DNA from: Nocardioides immobilis
Lineage (GTDB): Bacteria; Actinomycetota; Actinomycetes; Propionibacteriales; Nocardioidaceae
Direction: 5' to 3'
NCBI RefSeq assembly: GCF_003515065.1
Contig: NZ_QXGH01000018.1
Location: 1 to 64,000 of the forward strand
DNA: 64,000 nt
The position numbers and the translations under genes were made by a program. The notes beneath the pieces are model-generated. The model made no database searches and was not told the origin of the DNA. It worked only from the letters and a program-made list of their open reading frames with translations. Within the stretch, counting starts at the first letter, position 1. Each line of letters starts with the position of its first letter. Shown here in pieces: positions 22,264 to 57,935 of the stretch.

Positions 22264-22809
22264 TCACGCGTTGGCGGTCTCTGTCGGCGTGAAGTTCTGG
22301 ATAACCACGGTCTCCTGCGTGCCCCAGGGAGTGAGGCGCTCGCCCGACGTCGGGTCGCTCTGGAAGTACTCGGGAAGCTCGTCGACACCGTAGGAGAGCG
22401 CGGACAGTCGGCCCCCGGCGACGAAGCAGGCGCAGCTGTAGGCGATCTCGTGGATGTCGCGCTCGGAGAAGTGGCGGCGCAGCTCTGCCACGAGTGCCTC
22501 GTCGATGGCGAGGTGGTTCGTGGCGAACAGGTCCGCGAAGCGCAGCGCCGCACGCTCTGCGTCGGTGAGGTCGGGGGCCTCGTGCGGCTTCTCGAGTGAG
22601 CACACCAGGTCCTCGGTCACCCCGTCCTCGATCGCGTCCTCGTAGCGGACCGCCATGCAGGTCCGGCACTGGTTGTGGAAGGCGATGCGCAGCCGGATGA
22701 TCTCCATCAACCGCCGCGGCAGGTTCCCATCGTTCATGACGCTGACCAGGAACCCCTCCTGGGCAGCCAGGATCTTGGTGTTCGGGTCCTTGAACTCGAG
22801 TACGGGCAT
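22264..22809 (-). CDS. Carboxymuconolactone decarboxylase (CMD/AhpD-like) family protein
   Basis: A 181-residue all-helical CMD-fold protein with the redox-type motif NQCRTCMAVR (Cys48 and Cys51) and the downstream FADLFATNHLAID helix. AhpD-like members are peroxidase adaptors; others act in ring-cleavage lactone metabolism. Both Cys residues of the CxxC are present, so a thiol-redox role is more likely than decarboxylation. It is separated by 129 bases from the SDR downstream. An AT-rich element and a palindrome lie just upstream. Confidence 0.8.
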   Translation of the reverse strand: MPVLEFKDPNTKILAAQEGFLVSVMNDGNLPRRLMEIIRLRIAFHNQCRTCMAVRYEDAIEDGVTEDLVCSLEKPHEAPDLTDAERAALRFADLFATNHLAIDEALVAELRRHFSERDIHEIAYSCACFVAGGRLSALSYGVDELPEYFQSDPTSGERLTPWGTQETVVIQNFTPTETANA

Positions 22810-22840
22810 GGTGCTTCCTCCGGGTGGTAGTTGTGCAGAA

Positions 22841-22878
22841 TATATGTAAACTTTTATATGAACAGAACTCTAGTGTTC
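22841..22878. promoter_or_regulatory. AT-rich element plus palindrome upstream of the CMD gene
   Basis: TATATGTAAACTTTTATATG at 22841-22860 is one of the few long AT-rich runs in the window and shares TAAACTTTT with sites near 9915 and 33345. Next to it, GAACTCTAGTGTTC (22865-22878) is a near-perfect 14-base palindrome centred on CTAG. This places a likely promoter and operator 32-69 bases upstream of the CMD start. Confidence 0.5.
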
Positions 22879-23487: not shown

Positions 23488-24951
23488 CTAGCGGGTGACG
23501 GACGCTGGGCGGCGAAGGAGCTTCAGGAGAAGGGAGTAGACGACGAGCCCATCCCGCCACTGGGTCACGATCTGTCCCTTGGGGCCCTTGAAGTAGTTGT
23601 TGCCGTGGACCCACGCGGTCTTGGCGAGTCGGCGCTGCAGCCACTTGTTGTAGACAGTCGTCCACGACTGCTTGACGTCGATCGCAGTGACGCCGCCGTT
23701 CTTCATGCGCCTGAGGTTCGCCACCACGTAGCCCGCCTGCTGCATCTGCAACCAGGTGATCGGCGCCGCGCCGTTGCTGTTCGGTCCGTAGAGCATGTAG
23801 AAGTTCGGGAAGTTCGGGACGGCTGTCCCGAGGAACGCGTAAGCCCCCTCGCGCCACTGCTCGTGCAGGTCGCATCCGTCACGTCCGTACACCTGCAGCG
23901 TTGACAGGTACGAGCTCGCCTTGAAGCCGATCGCTGCCACTACGATGTCGACCTCGCGCTCGACACCTTCGCTGTCGACGATCCCTGTCTCGGTCAGCTC
24001 CGACACGCTGTGCGGCACCAGCTCGACGTTCTCGCGCTTCAGTGCCGGGAAGTAGGCGTCGGTCAGGATGCGCCGCTTGCCCGAGAACGCGTACTTCGGC
24101 GTCAGCGCCTCCTTGAGGTCCGGCCGGTCCGCGAAGGTCGTCTCCAGGTACTGCAGCGCGAGGGCCTTGGCCTTCTCGTTGCGCTCGCTGCCGAGGATGT
24201 AGACAGGACGGTAGAGGTAGGCGATCTCGTTCTTCGCCATCATCTTCAGACGGCGCCACTTGCGCCTCCAGGGGTTGTTCAGCTCCTTGAGGTCCTCCTC
24301 GGTGTAGTCACGGTCACCCTTGGGGAGCACCCACCCCGGCTCGCGCTGGAAGACGTACAGCTGCTTCACGTCCGGCGCGATCGTCGGAATGATCTGCACC
24401 GCCGAAGCGCCGGTGCCGACCACGGCGACCCGTTTGCCCGTCACGTCAAGGTCGTCGGGCCACTGCTGGGTGTGGAAGACCCGGCCTCGGAACTTCTCGA
24501 GACCGGGCCACGAGGGGTCCTTCGGATCACTGAACAGACCGACGGCGGAGACGACGACATCGCACTCGATCTGCTCCCCTGCGGCTGTCGTCACGGTGTG
24601 GGTGTGCGTGGCGTCGTCCCATCGCACCTCTCGCACCTTGACACCGAACCGGAAGTGATCGCGCACGTCGAACATGTCGAGCGTCTCGTCGATGTAGCGC
24701 ATGAGCTCAGGTTGCCGAGCGTGCGTGCGCGTCCACACGTGGTCGCGGTACGGCAGCGAATACACCGTCGAGTTCACGTCGACCTCGGCCCCCGGATAGT
24801 GGTTCAGCCACCATGTCCCACCCGGGCCATCGGCCGCTTCCAACACCGTGAAGTCGTCGAACCCTGCCTTCTTGAGCTTGACCGCCATCGTCACCCCGGC
24901 AAAACCCGCTCCGATGACGATCACCCGCGGCGACGACGTCCTACCGACCAT
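23488..24951 (-). CDS. FAD-dependent Baeyer-Villiger-type monooxygenase
   Basis: A 487-residue flavoprotein that inserts oxygen next to a ketone, giving an ester or lactone. It has two Rossmann motifs (GAGFAG at 14-19, GTGASA at 179-184) and the type I fingerprint FRGRVFHTQQWP (154-165), which fits FxGxxxHxxxWP. The active-site region YMLYGPNSNG near the C-terminal half also fits the class. The ATG at 24951 is chosen because the upstream open frame lacks a start signal. In context it could convert a cyclic or branched ketone of the pathway, with SnoaL and CMD proteins downstream. Confidence 0.9.
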   Translation of the reverse strand: MVGRTSSPRVIVIGAGFAGVTMAVKLKKAGFDDFTVLEAADGPGGTWWLNHYPGAEVDVNSTVYSLPYRDHVWTRTHARQPELMRYIDETLDMFDVRDHFRFGVKVREVRWDDATHTHTVTTAAGEQIECDVVVSAVGLFSDPKDPSWPGLEKFRGRVFHTQQWPDDLDVTGKRVAVVGTGASAVQIIPTIAPDVKQLYVFQREPGWVLPKGDRDYTEEDLKELNNPWRRKWRRLKMMAKNEIAYLYRPVYILGSERNEKAKALALQYLETTFADRPDLKEALTPKYAFSGKRRILTDAYFPALKRENVELVPHSVSELTETGIVDSEGVEREVDIVVAAIGFKASSYLSTLQVYGRDGCDLHEQWREGAYAFLGTAVPNFPNFYMLYGPNSNGAAPITWLQMQQAGYVVANLRRMKNGGVTAIDVKQSWTTVYNKWLQRRLAKTAWVHGNNYFKGPKGQIVTQWRDGLVVYSLLLKLLRRPASVTR

Positions 24952-25005
24952 GCGTACCCACTCCAGACTCTGTAGAACGACCGCCGGCTTCGCGGCGGCC
25001 CTTGT

Positions 25006-25021
25006 CACACTTAAAGGTGTG
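25006..25021. promoter_or_regulatory. Inverted repeat upstream of the monooxygenase gene
   Basis: CACACTTAAAGGTGTG has perfect 5-base arms around an AT-rich centre, 55 bases upstream of the monooxygenase start. It is followed by ATTGAATACAATG, whose ATTG/CAAT arms form a second small inverted repeat. Both lie in the 135-base gap after the MmgE/PrpD gene, so a separate regulated promoter for the downstream genes is plausible. Confidence 0.45.
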
Positions 25022-25086
25022 CACGATTGAATACAATGATCGCACACTCGCCGACCTGAGGCAACGGTCCAGGCTCCCGTCGGACG

Positions 25087-29521: not shown

Positions 29522-29525
<4 letters not shown>
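29085..29525 (-). CDS. B12-binding small subunit of acyl-CoA mutase (module 1)
   Basis: A 146-residue cobalamin-binding domain. The signature DxHxxG is DVHTKG (16-21), whose His18 is the lower axial ligand of cobalt. VVVGGLI (90-96) is the expected GG motif. The usual SxL loop after the second strand is changed to GVSFSSAS. Separate small subunits of this size occur in isobutyryl-CoA and 2-hydroxyisobutyryl-CoA mutases, whereas methylmalonyl-CoA mutases carry the domain fused. It overlaps the large subunit and the ligase by four bases each, giving a coupled cassette. Confidence 0.92.
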
Positions 29526-31186
<1,661 letters not shown>

Positions 31187-31232
31187 GAGGAGCCCTCCTT
31201 GTGAGTGATCGTGCGGGGCCAGCTGCCCCGGG

Positions 31233-32147
31233 TCACCGATCGTGGTCGGATGGAAAGTCGGGCAGGACGTCGCGGGCGACGTTGCGCAGGGTCTGGGCGA
31301 CGGCGTCAGTGTCGTCGGACGCGGGCGCAAGGATGCAATAGGTCGCACCCGCGGCGCGGTAGGCGTCGAGCTCGCGTCCGAGAGCTTGGGAGTCGTTCCC
31401 GTCGACGAACGCCTTCCGCTCCCCCTCGGTGGTGACGGCTTCGCCCACGCCGAGGTTGAGCCGGACCCCGAAGTCGAAGGTGGAGACATCGCGGCCGTGC
31501 TCCTCCAGGATGTCGACCGCCCCCTTGCGGGACTCTCCGAAGTCCTTCGGGCCGATGGCTGACGGGTGCCAGCCTGTGCCGAGACGAGCGGCACGCCGGA
31601 TGGCCGCGTCGCTGTTGCCGCCGACCCAGATCGGGATGGACGGCTGCTGCACGGGTTTGGGCGAGGTCCGCACACCCGAGAAGCTCCAGTGCTTGCCCTC
31701 GAAGCTTGCGACCTCCTCGGTCCACAGGGCCTGCATCACCTGGATCGACTCGGTCGTGATGGCTCCCCGGCGGTTCCAGGGGATGTTCATCGCCTCGAAC
31801 TCCTCCGGCACGTTGCCGACGCCGACGCCAAGGGTGACTCGCCCGCCGCTGAACTGGTCGAGGGTGGCGACGTACTTCGCGATCTCGAACGGTTGGTGGA
31901 AGGGCAGGATCAGCACCGACGTACCCAGCCGGATGCGCGACGTCTTCGCCGCGATGTGCGACAGGGTGGCCAACGGGTGGAAGTACGGACGGTCCCCCAG
32001 GCGCGCATGGACGTAGCTGACGTGGGTGAGGTGCTCCGAGGTCCACACCGAGTCGAACCCGAGTTCCTCGGCCAGGACGGCGAGATCCGCCAGAGCCAAC
32101 GGGTCGCGCACCCCGTTGTTCGAGGGGATCGAGAGAGCAATGCGCAT
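31233..32147 (-). CDS. LLM-class F420-dependent oxidoreductase (module 1)
   Basis: A 304-residue luciferase-like TIM-barrel protein. It has ALADLAVLAEELGFDSVWTSEHL, GTSVLILPFHQPFEIAK, GGRVTLGVGVGN and PIWVGGNSDAAIRRAARLGTGWHP, typical of probable F420-dependent actinobacterial dehydrogenases or reductases. GGAAGG lies six bases upstream of the ATG. It is encoded immediately upstream of the mutase large subunit (46 bases), and module 2 has an LLM protein in the same company, so it likely acts on the acid or acyl-CoA that feeds the mutase. Confidence 0.85.
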   Translation of the reverse strand: MRIALSIPSNNGVRDPLALADLAVLAEELGFDSVWTSEHLTHVSYVHARLGDRPYFHPLATLSHIAAKTSRIRLGTSVLILPFHQPFEIAKYVATLDQFSGGRVTLGVGVGNVPEEFEAMNIPWNRRGAITTESIQVMQALWTEEVASFEGKHWSFSGVRTSPKPVQQPSIPIWVGGNSDAAIRRAARLGTGWHPSAIGPKDFGESRKGAVDILEEHGRDVSTFDFGVRLNLGVGEAVTTEGERKAFVDGNDSQALGRELDAYRAAGATYCILAPASDDTDAVAQTLRNVARDVLPDFPSDHDR

Positions 32148-33410: not shown

Positions 33411-33476
33411 GAGTTTGCATGCGAGATAGTGTGCAATCTGCCCCGTGCGTTGATGCGCCCTACTGGAGGACGGCCC

Positions 33477-40630: not shown

Positions 40631-40764
40631 GGTGGAACGACCTCCCTAGGGGCGGTGACCCGCGAACGTCAGTCACCGTGATGATGGTTGTGCACACACT
40701 ATGGGATGCGCGATGTTGTTACAATCGTCACGCAAGGGTTGTTGGCGCGACAAATGTAGATGAT

Positions 40765-46168: not shown

Positions 46169-47686
46169 TCAGCCGAGCGCCGTGCGCAGGCTGCAGAACT
46201 CTTCAATGCCGTCCGCGTCGATGACGGACTCGACCTGACCGTCGTCGTCGATGACCACGATCCGGTCCGCCAGGGACGCCAGGTCCTCCATGTCTGACGA
46301 CGCAACCATCACGGCGCACCCGTCCTGGGCGAGCTTTGTGACGAACGAGTAGATCTCACGGCGTGTGGCGACGTCGACGCCGCGCGTGGGTTCGCAGAGC
46401 ACCACGCAGCCAGGCTGATCGGCAACGACCCGTCCCAAGAGGGCCTTCTGCTGATTCCCTCCGGAGAGCGTCGTGATCACGGCGTCGGTGTTCCGCGGGA
46501 TGACGTTCAGCTCGACGGCCGCGGCCGAGATCTCGTCACGCATCTTCGCCAGGTTGATCAGACCGAGTCGTCGCCAGCGGTTCGAGTTGCCCATCGACAT
46601 GTTGAACTCGACAGTCTGGTCCGGGAACGTCCCGTCCACATCACGGTGAGCCGGCAAGCAGGTGACCTTGGTGCCTGGCCGGACCTTCACCCTCCCGTGC
46701 CGAGGTCGGATCACGCCCGCCACGAGGTAGGCGGCGTCGTGGAACCCCGACACCGAAGAGCCGTAAAGCCCGGTGATGGAGCCCTCGTGCAGCGTGAGGC
46801 TCAGGGGCCCGATGCGATTGACCGACACGTCGGTCAGCTCGACGACGACCTCTCCTCGCGGCTCGCCGCCACCGGACTGATGGGTGGTCAACGCCTTGTT
46901 GCGCCCGCTGGACATCACCTCGACCAGCGCGTCCCGCTCGACGTGCCCACCTTCGTCCAACGCGACCTTGCCGTCGACAAACACCACGTAGCGGTCGACA
47001 TGACCGACGACCTCTTCGAGGCGGTGCGTCACCATGACCACGGTCGCGCCCTTTCGGGCGGCGCCCTTCAGGTGCTCGATCAGCCAGAACGCCTCGGCGC
47101 GAGGAAGGCTCGCGGTCACCTCGTCGACGACGATGACCTCCGCGCCGCGCGACCACAACCGCGCCGTCGCGATCAAGGCGCGCTGCCCGAGGGACAGGTC
47201 TCGCAGCAGGGTCCGAGGATCGACGGCAGACAGTCCGACGAACTCGAGCATCTCTTCTGCGCTGCGATACTCGCTGCTCAAGGAGAGGAACGGCTTCGAC
47301 ATGCCCGGCCCGAGGAAGAGGTTCTCGGCCACGCTCATGTCGTCGAACAGGCCCAGGTCCTGATGGATCACCCCCGCAGAGGCTGCCGCGTCGCCCTCAG
47401 ACCCAAGCCTCAGCGACCCCGCGGTACAGGCGATCACGCCGTCGAGCAGCTTGATCAGGGTCGACTTGCCGGCCCCGTTCGGACCCAGCAGAGCGACGAA
47501 CTCGCCCGCCCGCAACGTGAGGTCCACCTTGTCGAGAGCCGTGTGATCGCCGTACTTCTTGGTCAGGCCACGACACTGAACGGTGACCCTCTGATCGGAC
47601 ACGGATGACTCACCCCCCGTGCGGTCGCCGGGCGCCATCGCCGCCTCGCGGCGGCGGCGGTCCCTGCGGTGCTGCTGCATAGCCAT
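46169..47686 (-). CDS. ABC transporter ATPase, tandem (RbsA-type)
   Basis: A 505-residue protein with two fused nucleotide-binding domains. Domain 1 has Walker A GPNGAGKST (68-76), the signature LSLGQ and Walker B VIVVDEVTA. Domain 2 lacks a canonical Walker A (GLYGSSVSGF) but has LSGGNQQKALLGR, as normal for CUT2 ATPases. The ATG overlaps the binding-protein stop (TGATG). It energises uptake through the adjacent permease. Confidence 0.92.
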   Translation of the reverse strand: MAMQQHRRDRRRREAAMAPGDRTGGESSVSDQRVTVQCRGLTKKYGDHTALDKVDLTLRAGEFVALLGPNGAGKSTLIKLLDGVIACTAGSLRLGSEGDAAASAGVIHQDLGLFDDMSVAENLFLGPGMSKPFLSLSSEYRSAEEMLEFVGLSAVDPRTLLRDLSLGQRALIATARLWSRGAEVIVVDEVTASLPRAEAFWLIEHLKGAARKGATVVMVTHRLEEVVGHVDRYVVFVDGKVALDEGGHVERDALVEVMSSGRNKALTTHQSGGGEPRGEVVVELTDVSVNRIGPLSLTLHEGSITGLYGSSVSGFHDAAYLVAGVIRPRHGRVKVRPGTKVTCLPAHRDVDGTFPDQTVEFNMSMGNSNRWRRLGLINLAKMRDEISAAAVELNVIPRNTDAVITTLSGGNQQKALLGRVVADQPGCVVLCEPTRGVDVATRREIYSFVTKLAQDGCAVMVASSDMEDLASLADRIVVIDDDGQVESVIDADGIEEFCSLRTALG

Positions 47687-48840
47687 CAGCTGCTCAGGCC
47701 CCACTGCTCGTAGAACGCGCTCTGCATGTCCTCCGGCACCCAGCGACCGTCCTCGTTGACGTAGTCAGCAGCGTTCTGCTGCATGATCGGCACCGCGGGG
47801 TTGTTGCCGTAATCCGGCACCTCTTGGCCGTTGAAGACCCGGGCGAGGGCGTCGACGTCGGCGTAGGCAACGAACAGCTGCGAGATGAGCACGGTGCCAG
47901 CCAACAGGGGGGCGTGCTCACCGTCCGCGATCTGCTGTCCGATGGGCGCATCGCCATAGGTGTCGAAGATCTTGAAGTCATCGCGGCCCGCCTGCTCGGC
48001 CAGGTTGACCATCGCGGTCGTGCCAGGGGTGAAGGGCGTGATCACCGCATCGATCGTGCCCGGCGGGTACTCGCGCAGCATGTTGGTGAAGGAGGGAACC
48101 GTGGGCTTGCCGATGTCGGAGTTCGCGTAGGGGACCTGGACGACCGTGCAGTCCGGGCACTGCTCGCCGATCAGCCTCTCCTGCTCCGCGTTGTTGGCCA
48201 CGACCGTCGCGGCCTCGTTCGTCACGAGGACGATGGTTGCGTCGTCCTTGTTCACCGCGGCCAGCACCATCGGAATCTGGTGCTGCACCAACGACTCGGC
48301 GCTCGAACCGACCAGCGTGACGCCGTCCACCGGATCTGACGGCTTGCACTCGTTGCACACGATGGGGATCCCTGCGTCCTGGGCGGACTTGATAGCCTCC
48401 GGGACGGTGTGCGGCGGGATCGAGCCCAGGATGATCCCGTCCGTCCCCCGCAGCACGGCCTGCTCGATCAGGGTCGCCTGCACGCTCGGCGTGAACTCGC
48501 CGTCGTACGGACCGTCCACCGTCCAGCCAGCCTTCTCGATCACCTCGACTTGATCCGCCTGCACCTCGGCGTTGCCGCCGGCTGCCACGCCGAGGTTGAT
48601 GAAGGTCACCGTGTGCTTGCCGAGGTCGACGGGCTCGGTCGGGTACGGCAGGGTGAAGTCCTGGCTCAGCACCTCGTCCAGGGCGTCCTGGTCGGCAGCC
48701 CCCCCGCTACCGCTGCCGCCTTCGCTTGAGGATCCGCAGGCAGCGAGCGTGAGAGCCGCGACCGCCGCGCCGGCCGCCGCCAGCGCCGTGGACTTTCTGG
48801 GCCGTGACCGGACCGACGTCGTCCCGTGGAACCGCCTCAT
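47686..48840 (-). CDS. ABC transporter substrate-binding lipoprotein (peripla_BP_4 type)
   Basis: A 384-residue secreted lipoprotein. A signal sequence with a hydrophobic core (ALAAAGAAVAALTLAAC) ends at the lipobox Cys35. The mature protein has the two-lobe RbsB-like fold (VTFINLGVAAGGNAEVQADQ, GTDGIILGSIPPHTV, IDAVITPFTPGTTAMV). It is expected to capture the imported substrate at the outer membrane face of the cytoplasmic membrane. As first gene of the seven-gene transporter-P450 operon it defines the inducible entry step. Confidence 0.92.
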   Translation of the reverse strand: MRRFHGTTSVRSRPRKSTALAAAGAAVAALTLAACGSSSEGGSGSGGAADQDALDEVLSQDFTLPYPTEPVDLGKHTVTFINLGVAAGGNAEVQADQVEVIEKAGWTVDGPYDGEFTPSVQATLIEQAVLRGTDGIILGSIPPHTVPEAIKSAQDAGIPIVCNECKPSDPVDGVTLVGSSAESLVQHQIPMVLAAVNKDDATIVLVTNEAATVVANNAEQERLIGEQCPDCTVVQVPYANSDIGKPTVPSFTNMLREYPPGTIDAVITPFTPGTTAMVNLAEQAGRDDFKIFDTYGDAPIGQQIADGEHAPLLAGTVLISQLFVAYADVDALARVFNGQEVPDYGNNPAVPIMQQNAADYVNEDGRWVPEDMQSAFYEQWGLSS

Positions 48841-48981
48841 CTGCGCTACCTATCTGTGTTGGTGGTGACCTTGGCCGAGTGGCGAAGGTCGACTTGCACC
48901 CGGGGGCGGGTGGCGTTCAACGGCCGAGCCGTGTTACTCGAGGAAGCGGCTCAGGCCGTGTGACCTGGGACACCCCTGTCG

Positions 48982-48997
48982 GCCATTATGTATACGC
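48982..48997. promoter_or_regulatory. GCCAT-TGTAT operator candidate, copy 1
   Basis: GCCATTATGTATACGC matches 13 of 16 positions of GCCATACTGTATGCGC at 52821-52836 and resembles GCCATAGTTTATGCCA at 51705-51720. It lies 142 bases upstream of the ABC substrate-binding protein start, within its promoter region. Three copies before transport, CoA-transfer and dehydrogenation genes suggest one regulator. Confidence 0.5.
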
Positions 48998-49115
48998 TTT
49001 GTCACAACATGCAAGGCAAATCTCAGATTTACCGGCGGGTGAGGCTCCACCCCAACCACTCGCGGCCCCGAGTCCCGCTCGTGTGTGACGTGAGCCTCAC
49101 CGCCAGTCACCGATT

Positions 49116-49330
49116 ATGTGTGATCTTTATAAAGAAAAGCAATGGGCAGCACGAGTTGTTGCCTATGACCCCGCCTCTGCCGCGGAAGCGAAGCGCGTCG
49201 TCGTCGAATACCCGGAGTCAAAGATCAAGGGACGTCCACGCTGGATCGTGGCTGCCGATCTCGGCGGACGGTCGAGGACGCGCGCGCCAAGGGGCGCCGC
49301 GCCGACCCGATCACGAAGGTGATCGACGTG
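49116..49330 (+). pseudogene. Frameshifted remnant of an unidentified small gene
   Basis: From 49116 the frame reads ARVVAYDPASAAEAKRVVV and SKIKGRPRWIVAADLGG with coding-like codon usage. The likely sequence then continues one frame over, as TVEDARAKGRRADPITKVID, implying a lost base near 49274. The continuation collides with the end of the oppositely oriented CoA-transferase gene. I do not recognise the family. It may be a decayed small gene or a real short ORF that stops at 49322. Confidence 0.3.
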
Positions 49331-51679
49331 TCAGATCAGGACGTCGTGGGCGTGGAGCTGCGCGATCTGCGCCGGCTCCATGCCCAGCAGGCCACTCAGG
49401 ATGTCGTCGGTGTCCGCGCCTAGCATGGGCGCGGGCACGGCGCGACCGACGGGACGTCCGCCGTAGCGGAACGGTGCCACGAACAGGTCAGTCTTGCCGA
49501 GGTAGCGGTGCAGCACCTGGGTCTTGAACTCCCGCGACTTCACCCAGTCAGAGTCGGTCATCTCCTCGAAGGACGCCACCGGCGCGGCAGCGATACCCCG
49601 CTCGAGCAGCGCTGCGACGAGCACGTCACGGTCCTGACCAGCCGTCCAGCGAGCCATCTCGGTCTCGAGCTCCGCCCTCCCGGCGCACCGGCCCTCGGCC
49701 GTCTGCCACCTCTCGTCCCCGGCCCACGAGGCCACCCCGGCGGCCAGATCGGACAGGGCCGCCCATTGATCATCCGAACGCACCGCGAGGGCGATCCAAC
49801 GATCATCCCCGGCGGCGGGGAAGTGCCCGTACGGCGCGAACAGGGGGTGCGTGTTCACCGGCACCTCGACGTCGCCGTCGATCTGGCTGGCGGCGATCGG
49901 CGCGGGCATCACGCACATCAGGGCCTCGATCTGCGACAGGTCGATCCAGCACCCGTGCCCCGTCCGCCGGCGACGGACCAGCGCGCCCAGCAGCGAGCAC
50001 AGGGCGTGGCCCGCCGCGTTCGGGTCACCCAGCGCGGGCGACAGGCTGCCGACGATGTTGCCCTTGTCGTAGCCGATCAGCGACTCGAGCCCCGACATGG
50101 CCGCCATGATGCCGGCGTACCCCTTCATCGAATTCAACGGACCCTCCTGGCCCGCCATCGACATCGACAGCATCACCACAGCGGGGTTGCGGGCCGCGAA
50201 CTCGTCGTAGGAGAGACCGAGCCGAGCCAGGACCCCGGGCCGCATGTTCTCCACGATGACGTCGCACTGCTCGACCAGGTCCAGCAGGATGGCGCGCGCC
50301 TCTGCGCGCTTCATGTCGAGGGTGATGCTGCGCTTGCCGTGGTTCATCTGATTGAAGTACGGCGTGGCCTCGTGCTCCGGCCCCTCGACTTCGACCCCGT
50401 TGCGACGGGCTCGACCCCGATGCCGGCCGGTGTCCATGTGACCGGAGTGCTCGACCTTCAGCACCTCGGCACCGAGGTCGCCGAGGACCGAGGTCGTCAG
50501 AGGTCCGGACCAGACCCAGGAGAGATCGAGGACACGGAGCCCGTCCAGCAACCGGGTCGGCTCGGCGTGCTCCCCCGAGACGGCCCACTGCCGCGGCGTC
50601 GCGGCCTCGGGCGTCTGGGACAGCTGCCAGGGAACGGTTGCCGAACGGAGGCCGGAGGCGTCGTGGTCGTAGAAGTCCCGGAACGCGAACTGCGGCTCGT
50701 CGATCGCCTCCCGAACGGAGAGGATGGGCGCAACGGCGAGCCCACTGGCCCGACCCAGCTTGACCAGCTCCTCAGCCGTGTGGCTGGCGATCCAGGGGAT
50801 GAGGTGCTCGTCCGCCTCGTCGCTGTGCAGCCGGGCGACGACCCGAGGGTCGTCGAACTTCGGGTCGCGGCTCCACTCGGGGTTGCCCATGGCTGCGAGC
50901 AGGGCGTGCCACTCCTTCTGGTTCCGGCACATCAGCACGACGTGGCCGTCGGAGCTCGGGAAGATGCTGGCTGGATAGACGCCGGCCGAGCCGGGCGGGC
51001 GAGCACCGTCGCGGGTCCACGGCCGCTCATAGGGCAGGAAGTTCGCCGTGATCATCCCGACGTAGTACGCCAGGACGTCACGGCCCGCGACGTCGACGTG
51101 CCGCAGCTCCTTCTGCTCCGGATCCGCCAGCAGCGCGATGAGGCCCGCTGCCGTGCCGTAGAGAGCCAACTGGAAGTCGGCGAGATCGAACGGAAGGGCG
51201 AGCGGTGCCTTGTCGGCGTCGCCGATGGACCAGCTCATGGCCGCCCAGGCACCGGTCGTCAGGCTGTCGCTGGGGATGGGCTCCCCGTCGATCATGGCGC
51301 CAGCAAGGGACACCACCACCGGCGGCGACGACAGAGCGTCAGCGGCTGCTGCGACCTCGAGGCCCCACGCCACCCATTCCGGGTCGGCCCCGTCGGTCTC
51401 GAGAAGCACCAGGTCGACACCGGCGACGACATCTGCCGGATCTGGTCGGCCGGGAACCCGGGTCTTCCCTTCGTGCACCCAGGCGACCGCGTGCTCGGCA
51501 GCACTGGCGGGCGCCGCCAGCTCGATGGCGGGTCCGACTCGGTCGACCTGCGCCCCCATCGTCACCAGGAGACGGCCCGCGTAGGCGCCCGACAGGCGCG
51601 AGGAGATCTCGAGAACTTTGACTCCGCGCAGGAGCTCCTGCGACGGCACCGGCTGATTCAGCTGGGCATTGATTGACAT
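49331..51679 (-). CDS. Double-length CaiB/BaiF-family CoA-transferase
   Basis: A 782-residue fusion of two class III CoA-transferase domains. The C-terminal domain is complete, with DLSWVWSGPLTTSVLGDLGAEVLKVE, NHGKRSITLDMK, VENMRPGVLARLGL and a catalytic-type Asp in LGDPNAAGHALCSLLGAL. The N-terminal domain has VLEISSRLSGAYAGRLLVTMGAQV but a less typical core (PFDLADFQLALYGTAAGL), so it may be mainly structural. It transfers CoA between acids, an alternative to ATP-dependent activation. The ATG at 51679 follows GAGGTGGCC. An operator-like repeat lies 22 bases upstream. Confidence 0.88.
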   Translation of the reverse strand: MSINAQLNQPVPSQELLRGVKVLEISSRLSGAYAGRLLVTMGAQVDRVGPAIELAAPASAAEHAVAWVHEGKTRVPGRPDPADVVAGVDLVLLETDGADPEWVAWGLEVAAAADALSSPPVVVSLAGAMIDGEPIPSDSLTTGAWAAMSWSIGDADKAPLALPFDLADFQLALYGTAAGLIALLADPEQKELRHVDVAGRDVLAYYVGMITANFLPYERPWTRDGARPPGSAGVYPASIFPSSDGHVVLMCRNQKEWHALLAAMGNPEWSRDPKFDDPRVVARLHSDEADEHLIPWIASHTAEELVKLGRASGLAVAPILSVREAIDEPQFAFRDFYDHDASGLRSATVPWQLSQTPEAATPRQWAVSGEHAEPTRLLDGLRVLDLSWVWSGPLTTSVLGDLGAEVLKVEHSGHMDTGRHRGRARRNGVEVEGPEHEATPYFNQMNHGKRSITLDMKRAEARAILLDLVEQCDVIVENMRPGVLARLGLSYDEFAARNPAVVMLSMSMAGQEGPLNSMKGYAGIMAAMSGLESLIGYDKGNIVGSLSPALGDPNAAGHALCSLLGALVRRRRTGHGCWIDLSQIEALMCVMPAPIAASQIDGDVEVPVNTHPLFAPYGHFPAAGDDRWIALAVRSDDQWAALSDLAAGVASWAGDERWQTAEGRCAGRAELETEMARWTAGQDRDVLVAALLERGIAAAPVASFEEMTDSDWVKSREFKTQVLHRYLGKTDLFVAPFRYGGRPVGRAVPAPMLGADTDDILSGLLGMEPAQIAQLHAHDVLI

Positions 51680-51700
51680 GGCCACCTCTTTCCACCTGAA

Positions 51701-51719
51701 GTATGCCATAGTTTATGCC
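51701..51719. promoter_or_regulatory. GCCAT-TTTAT operator candidate, copy 2
   Basis: GTATGCCATAGTTTATGCC sits 22-40 bases upstream of the CoA-transferase start. It shares AAGTATGCCATA with the copy at 52815-52826. CATA-GTT-TATG forms a small inverted repeat and TATGCC is repeated directly. The position over the expected promoter suggests repression. Confidence 0.6.
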
Positions 51720-51747
51720 AACGGACCGACACCCAATTGCATCTCAA

Positions 51748-52731
51748 TCAGCCCTGCATGAGCAGGAGAGCCGCCGCAGCCGGATCGAGGGATCCCTGGG
51801 CGATGTCACGAACCGCCCCCGTGAGGCGTCCGTCCTCACGCCAGGCCTGCAGCTTGGCTCGGACCATGCCGTGGGCGAACAGCTCCATCTCCCGCTCGAA
51901 GCGCTCGGCGCGCCGTTGGTCGAGCTCACCACTCGTTCGGAGATAGACCTGGTGAGCCTCCAGCGAGTCCAGCAGCGGGCCCACCCCCTCTCCGGTCGCG
52001 CCGCACGTGAGCAGGACGGGCGGGCGCCACTGTCCTGCACGGACGTCCCGATCCGCGCTGGCCAGCCGTAGATGCCGCCGAGCGGCCACCGCCCCTGGCT
52101 GGTCAGCCTTGTTGACGGCGAAGATGTCGACCAGCTCCACGATGCCAGCCTTGCTCGCCTGCACGTCGTCCCCCATCCCGGGCGCCGCGACCAGCACGGT
52201 GCTGTCGGCGATCGCGCAAACGTCGACCTCCGACTGACCGACCCCGACCGTCTCGATGATGACCGTCTCGAAGCCCGCCGCGTCGAGGGCGCGTACGGCG
52301 CTGGGCGTCGCGGCCGAGAGCCCACCGAGGGCACCACGACTCGACATCGACCGGATGAAGACGTCCCGATCGAGCTCGAACCCGCTCATGCGCACTCGAT
52401 CACCCAGCAGCGCTCCGCCGGTACGGGGCGAGCTCGGGTCCACCGCCAGGACCCCCACGCTTCTGCCCCGCGCGCGCACCTCCTTCACCAACGCCGCGGT
52501 CAGCGTCGACTTGCCGACTCCCGGGGCTCCGGTGAGGGCGATCACGTGTGCGCGCAGTCCGCGACTGATCGTTGTCAGAATGGAGGCGCCGGCCCCGATC
52601 GGTGACTCCTCCAACGCCGTCAAGAGCCGGCCCAGTGTTCTGGCCGAGCGCGCGTCGCGCTCCCCCGCCAGCAGGCAGGCCGCCTCCGCCACGAGGCTGC
52701 TCAGGTCTCGCGGCTGCTGCGAGCTTCCCAC
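51748..52731 (-). CDS. meaB: MeaB/ArgK-family G-protein chaperone of B12 mutases
   Basis: A 327-residue P-loop GTPase. The motifs are GAPGVGKST (68-76), VLAVDPSSPRTGGALLGDRVRM, IIETVGVGQSEVDV (Walker B and the switch III region) and NKAD for guanine specificity. MeaB-type proteins load adenosylcobalamin and eject damaged cofactor from acyl-CoA mutases. A dedicated copy here matches the two mutases encoded 20 kb to the left and 3 kb to the right. The GTG at 52731 (after GGGAGG) is chosen; the longer open frame runs through the divergent promoter. It lies 68 bases upstream of the CoA-transferase gene region. Confidence 0.93.
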   Translation of the reverse strand: MGSSQQPRDLSSLVAEAACLLAGERDARSARTLGRLLTALEESPIGAGASILTTISRGLRAHVIALTGAPGVGKSTLTAALVKEVRARGRSVGVLAVDPSSPRTGGALLGDRVRMSGFELDRDVFIRSMSSRGALGGLSAATPSAVRALDAAGFETVIIETVGVGQSEVDVCAIADSTVLVAAPGMGDDVQASKAGIVELVDIFAVNKADQPGAVAARRHLRLASADRDVRAGQWRPPVLLTCGATGEGVGPLLDSLEAHQVYLRTSGELDQRRAERFEREMELFAHGMVRAKLQAWREDGRLTGAVRDIAQGSLDPAAAALLLMQG

Positions 52732-52816
52732 TCTGACCTCCCACGAAGAATCGGCCACGGTTCCGCAGCCTCGGACCCGAGGAGCGCGAGGCGCAGGCCA
52801 TGACGGCCTCCCTAAA

Positions 52817-52834
52817 GTATGCCATACTGTATGC
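52817..52834. promoter_or_regulatory. GCCAT-TGTAT operator candidate, copy 3
   Basis: GTATGCCATACTGTATGC contains the perfect 11-base palindrome CATACTGTATG and a direct repeat GTATGC. It lies in the 168-base region between meaB and the divergent acyl-CoA dehydrogenase gene. It is the most symmetric of the three related sites. Confidence 0.6.
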
Positions 52835-52899
52835 GCGCCCTTGAGTTGCCCGCGCCACCCCGCGTAATCTCCCACCCGTCCCGGCCAAGGAGTCTCCCC

Positions 52900-54147
52900 G
52901 TGGATCTTTCGTATCCCGCCGACAGCGAGCGATACCGCGAGAAGGTCCGCGCCAAGCTTCAGGAGATCCTGCCTCAGGACTGGAAGGGGCTCGGCGCCCT
53001 CAGCGAATCCGAAGCCCACGAGTTCGCAACGTGGTGGCGGGGCGTTCTGCGCGACCACCGACTCCTGGCTCCGGACTGGCCGACTGAGTACGGCGGGCAG
53101 GGACTCACCCTGCTGGAGCGGTCCATCCTCGCCGAAGAGCTCATGAAGGTGGGAGCTCCCCAGTACCCGCTGCCCAACGACTCCATCAGCCTGGTCCTGC
53201 TCGCCCCCACCCTTTTGTATTTCGGGTCGTCCGAGCAGAAGGCGCGGTTCCTTCCCGGGACGCTGTCGGGCGAGTACGTGTGGGCCCAGGGCTACTCCGA
53301 GCCCGACGCCGGTTCCGACCTGTTCTCCCTGCGCACCAAGGCCGAGCGGGTCGGCGACAAGTGGCAGCTTACCGGCCAGAAGACCTGGCAGACAGCAGGC
53401 ACGACGGCCAACTGGATCTTCGTGCTGGCTCGCACGGATCCGACGTCACGCGGGGCCAAGGGTCTCAGCTTCTTCCTGCTCCCCCTCGACCAACCGGGCA
53501 TCACCGTGCGCGGCATCCGGAACATGGTGGGTCAGCTGGACTTCGCCGAGGTGTTCTTCGACAAGGCGGAGGCGCTCGACGCCCATCTCGTCGGAGGTGA
53601 GGGCAACGGCGCGAAAGTGGCGCTCGGTCTTCTCGGGTTCGAGCGCGGCGCTGGCGGCATGGCCGCGGTGGCGGCGGCTCGCATCGAGCTGGACCGACTG
53701 GTCCGGCTCGCTCGCGATCGCGGCCTGCACCGCGACGCCTCGATCCGGCGCCGCGTCGCCAGCAGCTACGCCGAGGTTCACGTCATGCGCTGCCTGGCGC
53801 TGCGCTCACTGGCGATGGGGCTCAACGACGAGCCCCCGGGCGCCGAGTCGTCGATCACGAAGATCCTCGCGTCCCAGCATCGCCAGCGCGTGAGCGAGCT
53901 TTCGGTCGATGTGCTCGGGCCAGATGCGGTGTCCTTTGACGGCCCCGTGGGGCATGAGCTCCAGAAGCCACAGCCGCTGGGGACCGACGCGCTCAGCTCG
54001 GGGGTGTGGATACAGGATGCCCTTCAGTCCCGCCCAGCCACCATCTACGGGGGCGCGCTGCAGATCCAGCGCAACACGATCGGTGAACGGGTCCTCGGTC
54101 TTCCCCGCGACCCGCGGCCCAGCCCGTCGAACAACACTCGCCCCTGA
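52900..54147 (+). CDS. Acyl-CoA dehydrogenase, alpha-type subunit
   Basis: A 415-residue ACAD with AQGYSEPDAGSDLFSL, LTGQKTWQTAGTTANWIF, the LLPLDQPGITVRGI core and the C-terminal ATIYGGALQIQRNTIGERVLGLPRD. The last motif is the type seen in the larger subunit of heteromeric steroid/branched-acid ACADs. The GTG at 52900 follows AAGGAG by seven bases. It is divergent from meaB and controlled by the operator candidate at 52817. It pairs with the product of the next gene, 10 bases downstream. Confidence 0.9.
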   Translation: MDLSYPADSERYREKVRAKLQEILPQDWKGLGALSESEAHEFATWWRGVLRDHRLLAPDWPTEYGGQGLTLLERSILAEELMKVGAPQYPLPNDSISLVLLAPTLLYFGSSEQKARFLPGTLSGEYVWAQGYSEPDAGSDLFSLRTKAERVGDKWQLTGQKTWQTAGTTANWIFVLARTDPTSRGAKGLSFFLLPLDQPGITVRGIRNMVGQLDFAEVFFDKAEALDAHLVGGEGNGAKVALGLLGFERGAGGMAAVAAARIELDRLVRLARDRGLHRDASIRRRVASSYAEVHVMRCLALRSLAMGLNDEPPGAESSITKILASQHRQRVSELSVDVLGPDAVSFDGPVGHELQKPQPLGTDALSSGVWIQDALQSRPATIYGGALQIQRNTIGERVLGLPRDPRPSPSNNTRP

Positions 54148-55746: not shown

Positions 55747-57417
55747 TCAGGACAGGGTGAAGGGTGCCTCGACGGCCCCGAACGGGTCGTACTGCATCCC
55801 GCAGGCCAACCGCTGGGCGCCAGAGATCTCGGCTGACGTCGCGCCGGCCAGGTAGGCATCGGCCATGGCATCCTGGGTGTTCCGGTCGCCACGGACCGAG
55901 TCGAAGACCATTTGCATGGCTGCCTTCACCGTCTCCGGATCGCGGGCGTCCCGTTCCTGGACGAAGCGTCGGATGTGGTCGTCGACGCGCGCCTGGTTGA
56001 CCTTGAAGCGCGGCGGGCGATCGTCTTCCTCGTTGGGCCGGAAGGCGTTCACCCCGACGATGAGGCGCTCGCCGGTCCGCAGCTCCTCCTCGCGTCGATA
56101 GTTCTCGTCATCCATCAGGCCTTCGAGCCAGCCGTCCTCGACGCCCTTGAGGAACCCGTGATCCTCGATGGTCTCGAGCAACTTGTACGCACGCTCCTCG
56201 ACCTGGTCGGTCAACGACTCGACGTAGTAGCTGCCCCCCAGCGGGTCAGCGGTACGGGCAGCGCCCACCTCGTGCGCAAGGATCAGCTGGGTGAAGGTGG
56301 CCAGCTCGCGTGCCTCGGGGGTCGGGATCGAGATCGGCTCGTCGTAGGTGCAGGTTTCCACTGACTGGACTCCACCGAGGATCGCCGCGAGCGTCTGGAT
56401 GGCAGCACGAGTGACGTTGTTCATCGCTCGCTGGTAGACGAGCGAGCGGCCGGAGGTGTGGCACGCGATGCGGAGTCGCATGCTGCGCGTGCTCTGCGCA
56501 CCGAACTCCTCGCGCATCATCTTGGCCCACATCCGGCGCAGCGCACGGAACTTGGCGACCTCCTCGAAAAGGTCGATGTCGGCCGTCGAGACCCACGCCA
56601 GGTGAGGCGCCACGTCGTCGATGTCGACACCTCGACTGAGCACGTCGCCGAACGTGCTGCGGGCGATCGCCATGCCGATGGCGATCTCCATGGCCGGCGT
56701 GCAGCCTCGCTCACGCAGGTTGTAGGCCTGCGGGATGCCGGCCGCCCACCGCGGTGTGTTCAGGGTCGCGAACTCGAGGGTGTCCGCGGCCAGGCGCTGC
56801 CCGAACTCGGCGTTGAAGAACTTCTTCCCGCCGCCGTCCATGTTGATGCGCAGGTAGTCGGGCATGTGCGAGCCGTGCACCTCGGCCAGCGGCAGGCCGT
56901 GGCGCCGGGCGTGGGCGATGACCATCGGGTAGATCATGTAGGTGATGTGCCAGGCAACGTCGGTCTTGGTGACGTCGACGTCGCGGAGAAGACGGTCGAG
57001 GTCGTTGAGCGAGGAGACCGAGGCGCCCTCCAGCCCCACGTCCTCGCGCAGCACAGGATGGTCCGGGTCGAGACCCTGCGTCGACACCACGTCGAACACG
57101 ATGTCGACTGCGGCCGAACCACTACGGACGGATGCCGCCACGGCGTCGGCCGTGTCCTCGGGGCTTCCGTAGCCGACGATGTTGCGCAGCGTCCACATGC
57201 GGCTGCGGTACATCTCGGGGAACGAGCCGCGGGTGAACGGGAACTCTCCGGGATCGCCCAGCTTCGCGTCGTACTCGTCGGTCCGCTCCCGGGGCCCGTA
57301 GAAGGCGTCGGTCTCGATGCCGGACATGGTCTTGGTGCGCGACAAGCGGACCGACACCTCCTCCACGTCGTCCTGGAGGGAGATCTTCACTGCTGCCTTG
57401 TCCGGCTGAACGGTCAT
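55747..57417 (-). CDS. Acyl-CoA mutase large subunit, non-canonical type (module 2)
   Basis: A 556-residue paralogue of the module-1 subunit, similar along its whole length (SFPEMYRSRMW, HGSHMPDYLRIN at 181-192, VADPLGGSYYVESLTD) but clearly divergent. Asn233 (IPQAYNLRERG) stands at the position of the catalytic His of methylmalonyl-CoA mutase, where module 1 has Asp. Arg208 matches the carboxylate-binding Arg. QSVETC again replaces QSLHTN. It is therefore expected to act on a related but different acyl-CoA. GAGGTG precedes the ATG; the gene lies 12 bases after the small-subunit gene. Confidence 0.92.
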   Translation of the reverse strand: MTVQPDKAAVKISLQDDVEEVSVRLSRTKTMSGIETDAFYGPRERTDEYDAKLGDPGEFPFTRGSFPEMYRSRMWTLRNIVGYGSPEDTADAVAASVRSGSAAVDIVFDVVSTQGLDPDHPVLREDVGLEGASVSSLNDLDRLLRDVDVTKTDVAWHITYMIYPMVIAHARRHGLPLAEVHGSHMPDYLRINMDGGGKKFFNAEFGQRLAADTLEFATLNTPRWAAGIPQAYNLRERGCTPAMEIAIGMAIARSTFGDVLSRGVDIDDVAPHLAWVSTADIDLFEEVAKFRALRRMWAKMMREEFGAQSTRSMRLRIACHTSGRSLVYQRAMNNVTRAAIQTLAAILGGVQSVETCTYDEPISIPTPEARELATFTQLILAHEVGAARTADPLGGSYYVESLTDQVEERAYKLLETIEDHGFLKGVEDGWLEGLMDDENYRREEELRTGERLIVGVNAFRPNEEDDRPPRFKVNQARVDDHIRRFVQERDARDPETVKAAMQMVFDSVRGDRNTQDAMADAYLAGATSAEISGAQRLACGMQYDPFGAVEAPFTLS

Positions 57418-57429
57418 GTCGCACCTCGC

Positions 57430-57858
57430 CTAGGCGTTGGATGTTTCGAAGGTCCCGCGACGACGCTCGATCAAGCGGTCGATCGCCTCGAGGATGTCTT
57501 CGGGGGAGGACGTCGGCCCGAAGGCCTCGGCCACACCCAACCGGTTGAGCTCGGGCACGTCCTCGCTGTGGATCAGGCCCCCGAGCACCACGGCGATGTC
57601 TGCTCCCCCGGCCTCGTCCAGCGCTCCGACGATCTCAGCGGCCCGTGCCAGGTAGTTGCCGTTGCTGAAGCTTACTCCCACGAAGTCGGCGTCCTCATGC
57701 ACAGCGACGGCCGCGAGCTGTTGAGAAGTGTTGTGCTCGCCGATGTAGACGACCTCGAGACCGTGGTCTCGGAAGATCCTCGCGATGGTCCTGATGCCCT
57801 TGTTGTGCTTGTCCGAGCCCACCATGCCCAGAACACAACGTCCTTGACCAGTCGTCAT
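57430..57858 (-). CDS. B12-binding small subunit of acyl-CoA mutase (module 2)
   Basis: A 142-residue cobalamin-binding domain with DKHNKG (Asp16, His18, Gly21), VVYIGEHNTSQQLAAVAV and VVLGGLI. The SxL loop reads GVSFSNGN, again unlike canonical mutases. It shares with module 1 the motif LGMxGxDxHxKGIRT at the start. The gene order here is ligase - small - large, the reverse of module 1, so the two modules did not arise by a simple tandem duplication. The GCATGCACA repeats lie just upstream. Confidence 0.92.
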   Translation of the reverse strand: MTTGQGRCVLGMVGSDKHNKGIRTIARIFRDHGLEVVYIGEHNTSQQLAAVAVHEDADFVGVSFSNGNYLARAAEIVGALDEAGGADIAVVLGGLIHSEDVPELNRLGVAEAFGPTSSPEDILEAIDRLIERRRGTFETSNA

Positions 57859-57914
57859 GCTCTTCTTCGTCTCCTGACTATGACGGGGGCGCCGAGAACT
57901 GATGCTAGCACGGA

Positions 57915-57935
57915 GCATGCACATTTGCATGCACA
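57915..57935. promoter_or_regulatory. GCATGCACA direct repeats upstream of the small subunit gene
   Basis: GCATGCACA occurs twice, separated by TTT, in the 98-base gap between the ligase and mutase genes. ATGCACATTTGCAT (57917-57930) forms an inverted repeat with 5-base arms. It could be an internal operator that adjusts mutase expression apart from the upstream beta-oxidation genes. Confidence 0.45.

Follow-up and report, generated by a model that had tools for sequence, protein, structure and literature searches.

Three copies of a short element of the form GCCATA-TGTATGC were noticed in a preliminary description of the first 64,000 nucleotides of contig NZ_QXGH01000018.1 of Nocardioides immobilis (assembly GCF_003515065.1; this whole stretch is called the window here, and its coordinates are also those of the contig). 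These elements are very probably operators of a single catabolic regulon of about 84 kb, which continues past the end of the window; the elements are most likely bound by a cluster-encoded FCD-type, VanR-like GntR regulator that most likely represses its targets.

Clustering of the sites on the home contig

A protein search with the CaiB-type coenzyme A (CoA) transferase of the window returned nine loci, of which the Blastococcus, Parafrankia, Mycolicibacterium, and Amycolatopsis ones contained motif-like sites. Only these other-genus clusters served to train a 22-base matrix, starting from 13 seeds that were refined to 54 sites (consensus TTGCATACCATTTTGCATGCAA); it was used with a threshold of 14 bits, the maximum possible score being 34.9 bits. 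An earlier iterated matrix, which grew from 76 to 148 sites, was kept out of the statistics. The matrix scan, which the preliminary description had recommended, found 17 sites of at least 14 bits on the home contig (178,485 bases) versus none in 400 kb of sequence taken from four further contigs of this genome, where lowering the threshold to 13 bits gave two matches. The home contig accounts for 31% of the bases scanned, and the chance of all 17 sites falling on it is about 2e-9. When the home contig was shuffled in 250-base blocks (40 trials), zero to two matches were obtained; column-permuted matrices (200 trials) gave at most five and the reversed matrix gave two. The 17 sites span 22.8–106.6 kb of the contig and, together with weaker ones, lie as follows.

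52815–52836, plus strand: predicted operator (copy 3), 20.0 bits, 18-mer (see below) without mismatch; divergent promoter region of meaB and an acyl-CoA dehydrogenase gene
51699–51720, plus strand: predicted operator (copy 2), 20.8 bits; upstream of the CaiB-type CoA-transferase gene
48976–48997, plus strand: probable weak operator (copy 1), 13.3 bits (<14); upstream of a binding-protein, ATP-binding cassette (ABC), permease, and P450 gene run
57913–57934, minus strand: predicted operator absent from the preliminary description, 23.4 bits; 55–76 bp upstream of the gene for the B12-binding mutase subunit (likely start 57858)
33415–33436, minus strand: predicted operator, 23.2 bits; upstream of a glyoxalase-family, SnoaL, and phosphotriesterase gene run
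25015–25036, minus strand: candidate operator, 16.6 bits; at the start of gene 23488–25047, within its longest open frame
22840–22861, minus strand: candidate operator, 15.0 bits; upstream of gene 22264–22809, AT-rich, boxes poorly matched
40690–40711, minus strand: possible weak operator, 11.8 bits (<14); between luciferase-like (39629) and SnoaL (40803) genes
65821: predicted divergent operator just outside the window; between an acyl-CoA dehydrogenase gene and an acetyl-CoA-synthetase-like gene
72425 and 72478: predicted operators in a gap, some hundreds of bases upstream of an AtuA-family gene
75597: predicted operator upstream of an iron-type alcohol dehydrogenase gene
78139 and, weaker, 78106: predicted operators between a GntR gene and a P450 gene
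104100: predicted operator upstream of a second GntR gene
106310 and 106539: predicted operators flanked by the genes for a binding protein and a CofG/CofH-like fusion
82177, 96807, and 101100: further predicted operators of at least 14 bits outside the window

The genes next to the three copies and to the site at 57913 are these.

49331–51679, minus strand: CaiB-type CoA transferase (PF02515)
51748–52731, minus strand: meaB-like GTPase (PF03308)
52900–54147, plus strand: acyl-CoA dehydrogenase, first of a pair
55747–57417, minus strand: methylmalonyl-CoA-mutase-family large subunit (PF01642)
57430–57858, minus strand: B12-binding mutase subunit (PF02310)
47686–48840, minus strand: periplasmic binding protein, head of the transport and P450 gene run

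The acyl-CoA dehydrogenase gene next to the site at 65821 heads a long same-strand gene run down to the mutase. When all clusters were pooled, 62 of 72 sites (55 of the 72 in the training clusters) were found near called gene starts, as against 29% of random positions. Genes were called with a simple script and some gene starts are therefore uncertain; those of the CaiB, meaB, binding-protein, and mutase-subunit genes were picked by us.

A plain pattern shows the same clustering. At up to two mismatches, all five distinct places where GYATGCNATANTGYATGC occurs in this genome are on the home contig, which holds 2.7% of the bases. The same search placed five of nine matches on the cluster contig in Parafrankia (a sixth adjoins another GntR relative, 66% identical), four of four within 43 kb in Mycolicibacterium, and three of three on one contig in Amycolatopsis.

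The three copies

The three strings that drew attention to the element are present at 48982, 51705, and 52821, and copy 3 contains the exact palindrome CATACTGTATG at 52823–52833. Their close match holds for copies 2 and 3, which lie far above chance, but less so for copy 1. Copies 2 and 3 share the 18-mer GTATGCCATACTGTATGC with two and zero mismatches, respectively, and this 18-mer did not occur in 100 dinucleotide shuffles of the window. At up to three mismatches, the entire genome (6.52 Mb) contains it three times in a stretch of about 14 kb, namely as copy 2, copy 3, and a new one at 65823 of the contig, 1.8 kb past the window end; the 18-mer read backwards gave two matches in the same genome. 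Among 195 genomes (this one included), the 18-mer at fewer than three mismatches was absent from every other genome. Copy 1 is not recovered by the 18-mer search at up to three mismatches; it has two mismatches to GCCATANTGTATGCGC, a string with four genome matches at up to two mismatches, three of them on the home contig. Within the window, a 16-mer at up to three mismatches was found four times (0.69 expected), a count reached by 1 of 100 shuffles, and the bare palindrome at up to two mismatches showed no excess (8 observed, 5.5 expected, and at least as many in 23 of 100 shuffles).

The 18-mer of copy 2 lies 22–39 bp upstream of the likely CaiB start (ATG 51679), and that of copy 3 lies 66–83 bp upstream of the acyl-CoA dehydrogenase start (GTG 52900) and 86–103 bp upstream of the likely meaB start (GTG 52731). 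Copy 1 is situated approximately 136–157 bp upstream of the binding-protein start (ATG 48840). The proposal of one regulon for import, activation, and the mutase chaperone is supported for CoA transfer, dehydrogenation, and meaB, and is widened to the mutase and to 17 sites in total. Transport is its weakest link: because the copy at 48982 is the weakest of the three and borderline in score, the transport gene run is only a probable member.

Conservation in other genera

In two Blastococcus loci, Mycolicibacterium, and Parafrankia (about 220 bp before the gene), a site stands upstream of the related CaiB gene, and in Amycolatopsis a site heads a same-strand gene run that contains the CaiB relative. 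For relatives of meaB, a nearby site was seen in this genome, Parafrankia, and Amycolatopsis; for the gene that opens the dehydrogenase pair, this was the case here and in Parafrankia, Mycolicibacterium, and a single Blastococcus locus. No site of at least 14 bits was present at four loci whose CaiB relatives are at 42–45% (two of these loci are near-identical).

Operator architecture and comparison with known systems

Self-complementarity measured over the 72 sites shows two peaks 12 bases apart (0.59 and 0.48). When 28 strong TTGCATGCAA copies from the clusters were taken as reference points, similarity to a second box increased at −12 and +12. The operator unit thus appears to be a pair of short palindromic GYATRC-type boxes with a centre-to-centre distance of 12 bp, of which one is frequently the stronger; in single sites, including those of the preliminary description, one box is often the weaker. 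At the centre of the palindrome noticed first (CATAC-N-GTATG), the self-complementarity is 0.44 (0.41 outside this genome), so that this palindrome would be the facing halves of two boxes and less conserved than the boxes themselves.

This layout is identical to that of a footprinted operator. Ms0535 (MSMEG_0535), a VanR-like GntR of Mycobacterium smegmatis, is described in PMC4609117 as protecting the operator CCTTGCATGCATTCTTGCATGCAAGG, in which two TTGCATGCA boxes are centred 12 bp apart and each can be bound alone, apparently in two steps. The matrix used here gives this published operator 26.1 and 27.6 bits, and the operator has the same two boxes as ours in sequence and in spacing. A new operator geometry was therefore not claimed for the 12-bp double box, which is already known from Ms0535 (PMC4609117). 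According to the same account, Ms0535 binds at −19 to −44 from its own start codon and activates its own operon (regulator and permease), and a further site in its genome was not found; here, in contrast, 17 predicted sites serve a large catabolic cluster.

Near-perfect double boxes of the form TTGCATGCAA-NN-TTGCATGCAA (up to three mismatches) were also observed in 33 of 297 genomes of one mycobacterial genus, where they probably represent the Ms0535 regulon. In 9 of 12 loci examined a GntR relative adjoins the double box, and the VSRTP helix is present in the two alignments seen. The candidate GntR introduced below is 25–32% identical to these neighbours over the aligned part, a figure that applies to those relatives and not to Ms0535 itself.

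The second precedent is Atu1419 of Agrobacterium fabrum, described in PMC7797058 as a VanR-type FCD GntR that represses catabolic genes and itself and is released by an effector, which is a folate and not a direct pathway intermediate. The GYATRC core is shared with its 10-bp operator ATGTATACAT (PMC7797058), and our candidate is likewise an FCD-type GntR with sites before catabolic genes and its own gene. The operators of Atu1419, however, are single palindromes about 109–190 bp apart that can be looped by a tetramer (PMC7797058), whereas the second box here is 12 bp away. In the FadR subfamily, as treated by Suvorova et al. (2015, PMC4494728), 13 groups have a weaker extra box 7–12 nt from the operator centre, and the common consensus is TKGT and ACMA boxes, usually 3 nt apart. 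The added weaker box is thus a shared feature, but the consensus is unlike ours: the boxes here are TTGCATGCAA-like and contain GT..AC only with T at Y and A at R. Among the papers listed by literature searches with the box string and terms, none described this regulon. Switches of this kind are known, but the present regulon appears to be undescribed.

The candidate regulator

The preliminary description had named the GntR and two-component proteins of the window, or a TetR encoded elsewhere, as candidates. The window's own GntR gene (16920) has a best matrix score of −0.6 in the 500-bp stretch at its start and the response regulator gene (13911) one of 2.8 in a 600-bp stretch, and neither was retained. 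A GntR-type regulator is likely after all, but it is a different one encoded outside the window. The TetR gene (86965) and a LuxR-type gene (101737) on the contig were set aside as well, as they lack relatives of at least 35% in the related clusters.

77369–78055 of the contig: candidate regulator, FCD-type GntR (PF00392 and PF07729 above cut-off)
104172–104864 of the contig: 76% identical paralogue of the candidate (PF00392 and PF07729 above cut-off)

Fourteen genes at 18–120 kb have relatives of at least 35% in the Parafrankia, Mycolicibacterium, and Amycolatopsis clusters; the two GntR genes are the only regulators among them, and the other 12 encode enzymes. In the Blastococcus loci, of which 22 kb was available, no such GntR was seen. 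Sites are present in the promoters of both GntR genes (78106 and 78139; 104100) and of the Mycolicibacterium copy. The association was also observed around GntR relatives elsewhere: of 34 such loci, 32 were outside the training contigs, and 11 of these 32 contain a site of at least 14 bits, compared with none of 111 control tiles. Two of the 11 belong to close relatives (75% and 66%) and nine to relatives at 39–43%.

VanR-group FCD regulators have six effector-domain helices instead of seven. By sequence, the nearest solved relatives of the candidate are 7xp0, McbR, TM0439, and Atu1419 (6z74, E 2e-9), the last three of which are placed in the VanR group in PMC7797058. All six cluster GntR copies carry the helix sequence VSRTPLREAL, which, in our reading of the numbering, matches the DNA-contacting helix 3 residues Arg45, Thr46, and Arg49 of Atu1419 (PMC7797058); the window's own GntR has VSGPSLREAL.

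Within the genus, 3 of 214 other genomes have a GntR relative at E 1e-30 (32–36%), and the cluster therefore looks accessory; the best matrix scores at these three relatives are 15.1, 5.8, and 9.5. Among 396 genomes sampled from the phylum, a relative reaching E 1e-40 was absent from every other genome. Three GntR relatives on Rhodococcus plasmids (37–43%) were considered as support and rejected because their best sites within 30 kb (15.5, 19.9, and 13.7 bits) lie away from the homologue itself.

In the family of Amycolatopsis acidicola, whose GntR relatives are 39–40% identical, near-identical double boxes of the type TTG.ATTCAATTTTG.ATGGAC are found 3′ of the gene in six loci, three of them read on the other strand. 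They may perhaps mark a related regulon.

Proposed mechanism and alternatives

Judging from the co-occurrence of sites and GntR genes, the operator type, and the precedents, we propose that one GntR dimer would occupy each box of the double boxes near the operon starts and its own gene, and would thereby hold down transcription of these operons and of itself. A small molecule linked to the pathway would bind the FCD domain and release GntR from the DNA, with Atu1419 as the model for both repression and release.

Several observations weigh against this account. The matrix seeds were found with a pattern that the window itself had partly suggested. Among the held-out GntR homologue loci, 21 of 32 have no site of 14 bits, several of the 11 that do are near-identical to one another, and in six the site stands behind the GntR gene and not in front of it. 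The own site of the Parafrankia GntR copy is weak (10.5 bits; 13.9 with the earlier matrix), and the two GntR paralogues may divide the work. Finally, GYATGCNATANTGYATGC at up to three mismatches gave 30 rows genome-wide versus 54 for its backwards control. At this looseness the pattern shows no genome-wide excess; the evidence lies in how the sites cluster and not in how many there are.

One alternative is that GntR binds these sites and acts mainly as an activator. Ms0535 does so from the same double box at −19 to −44 (PMC4609117), and copy 2 lies at a similar distance before CaiB, so that repression may be the wrong choice. On the other hand, the VanR-type relative Atu1419 is an effector-released repressor of catabolic genes and itself (PMC7797058), and several sites are near start codons, where a protein sitting on the DNA ought to act as a block. 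By analogy, repression is the moderately favoured mode if GntR is the regulator, and we regard activation as unlikely, though with some real weight.

The regulon could also be real but governed by a protein other than GntR, such as the product of the TetR gene (86965), that of the LuxR-type gene (101737), or a regulator whose gene lies elsewhere; the GntR genes would then be mere members. There are many TetR genes in the genome, at least one of them on the home contig among the matches listed, and dimers of another kind might in theory recognise the alternating ATG/CAT half-sites. However, the TetR and LuxR-type genes are without counterparts in the related clusters, whereas a GntR counterpart is present in all three clusters accessible to the search, and the box layout is that of a proven GntR operator (Ms0535, PMC4609117). 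We therefore consider this explanation improbable. That the similarity reflects chance or the local bias of AT-rich gaps, as the lack of excess for the bare palindrome and for the IUPAC motif at three mismatches might suggest, has next to no probability and is refuted for the whole site set, since the 250-bp block shuffles keep the AT-rich gaps and control contigs of similar GC content gave no match; the single weak sites at 48976, 40690, and 22840 may yet be chance matches.

Content of the cluster

The cluster encodes a CoA transferase, dehydrogenase pairs, a MaoC hydratase, a thiolase-like protein with an OB-fold partner, an AtuA-family protein, luciferase-like monooxygenases, and a B12 mutase. 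These family names suggest a branched or cyclic isoprenoid-like compound as the substrate.

The nearest structure in the PDB to the mutase large subunit (55747–57417) is 2-hydroxyisobutyryl-CoA mutase (4r3u, E 3e-93). An Asn is aligned with the His of the GYH motif and a Leu with the Tyr of GYD, and the enzyme likely acts on a different substrate. An Amycolatopsis relative (59%) also has Asn at the GYH His position. A second mutase-family protein of 717 amino acids is encoded at 29522–31675 and is 53% identical to the same Amycolatopsis mutase. At 106586–109516 of the contig, a CofG/CofH-like fusion (F420 synthesis type) has two predicted operators upstream, in a cluster rich in luciferase-like monooxygenases. 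PHB-depolymerase-type and PhaC-type polymerase genes lie inside the cluster at 85205–89453 of the contig, with the TetR gene between them.

Meaning of the proposed regulon

It is possible, but tentative and a little short of an even chance, that one Ms0535-like GntR acts through tandem palindromes spaced by 12 bp to control a degradation cluster of about 84 kb and about 17 operators that is as yet undescribed. The cluster would occur in at least five actinobacterial genera, would have spread between lineages, and would include a B12 mutase of unusual type, the chaperone of this mutase, and possibly F420 synthesis. One predicted pathway, for which a likely regulator is named, thus brings together about 17 sites and many genes that otherwise have no assignment. 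The identity of a compound acting on GntR would reveal the substrate of the cluster. With the operator set, more genes of the pathway could be found quickly, such as those of the mutase and the CofG/CofH-like gene at 106586, and the set could also serve as a sensor.

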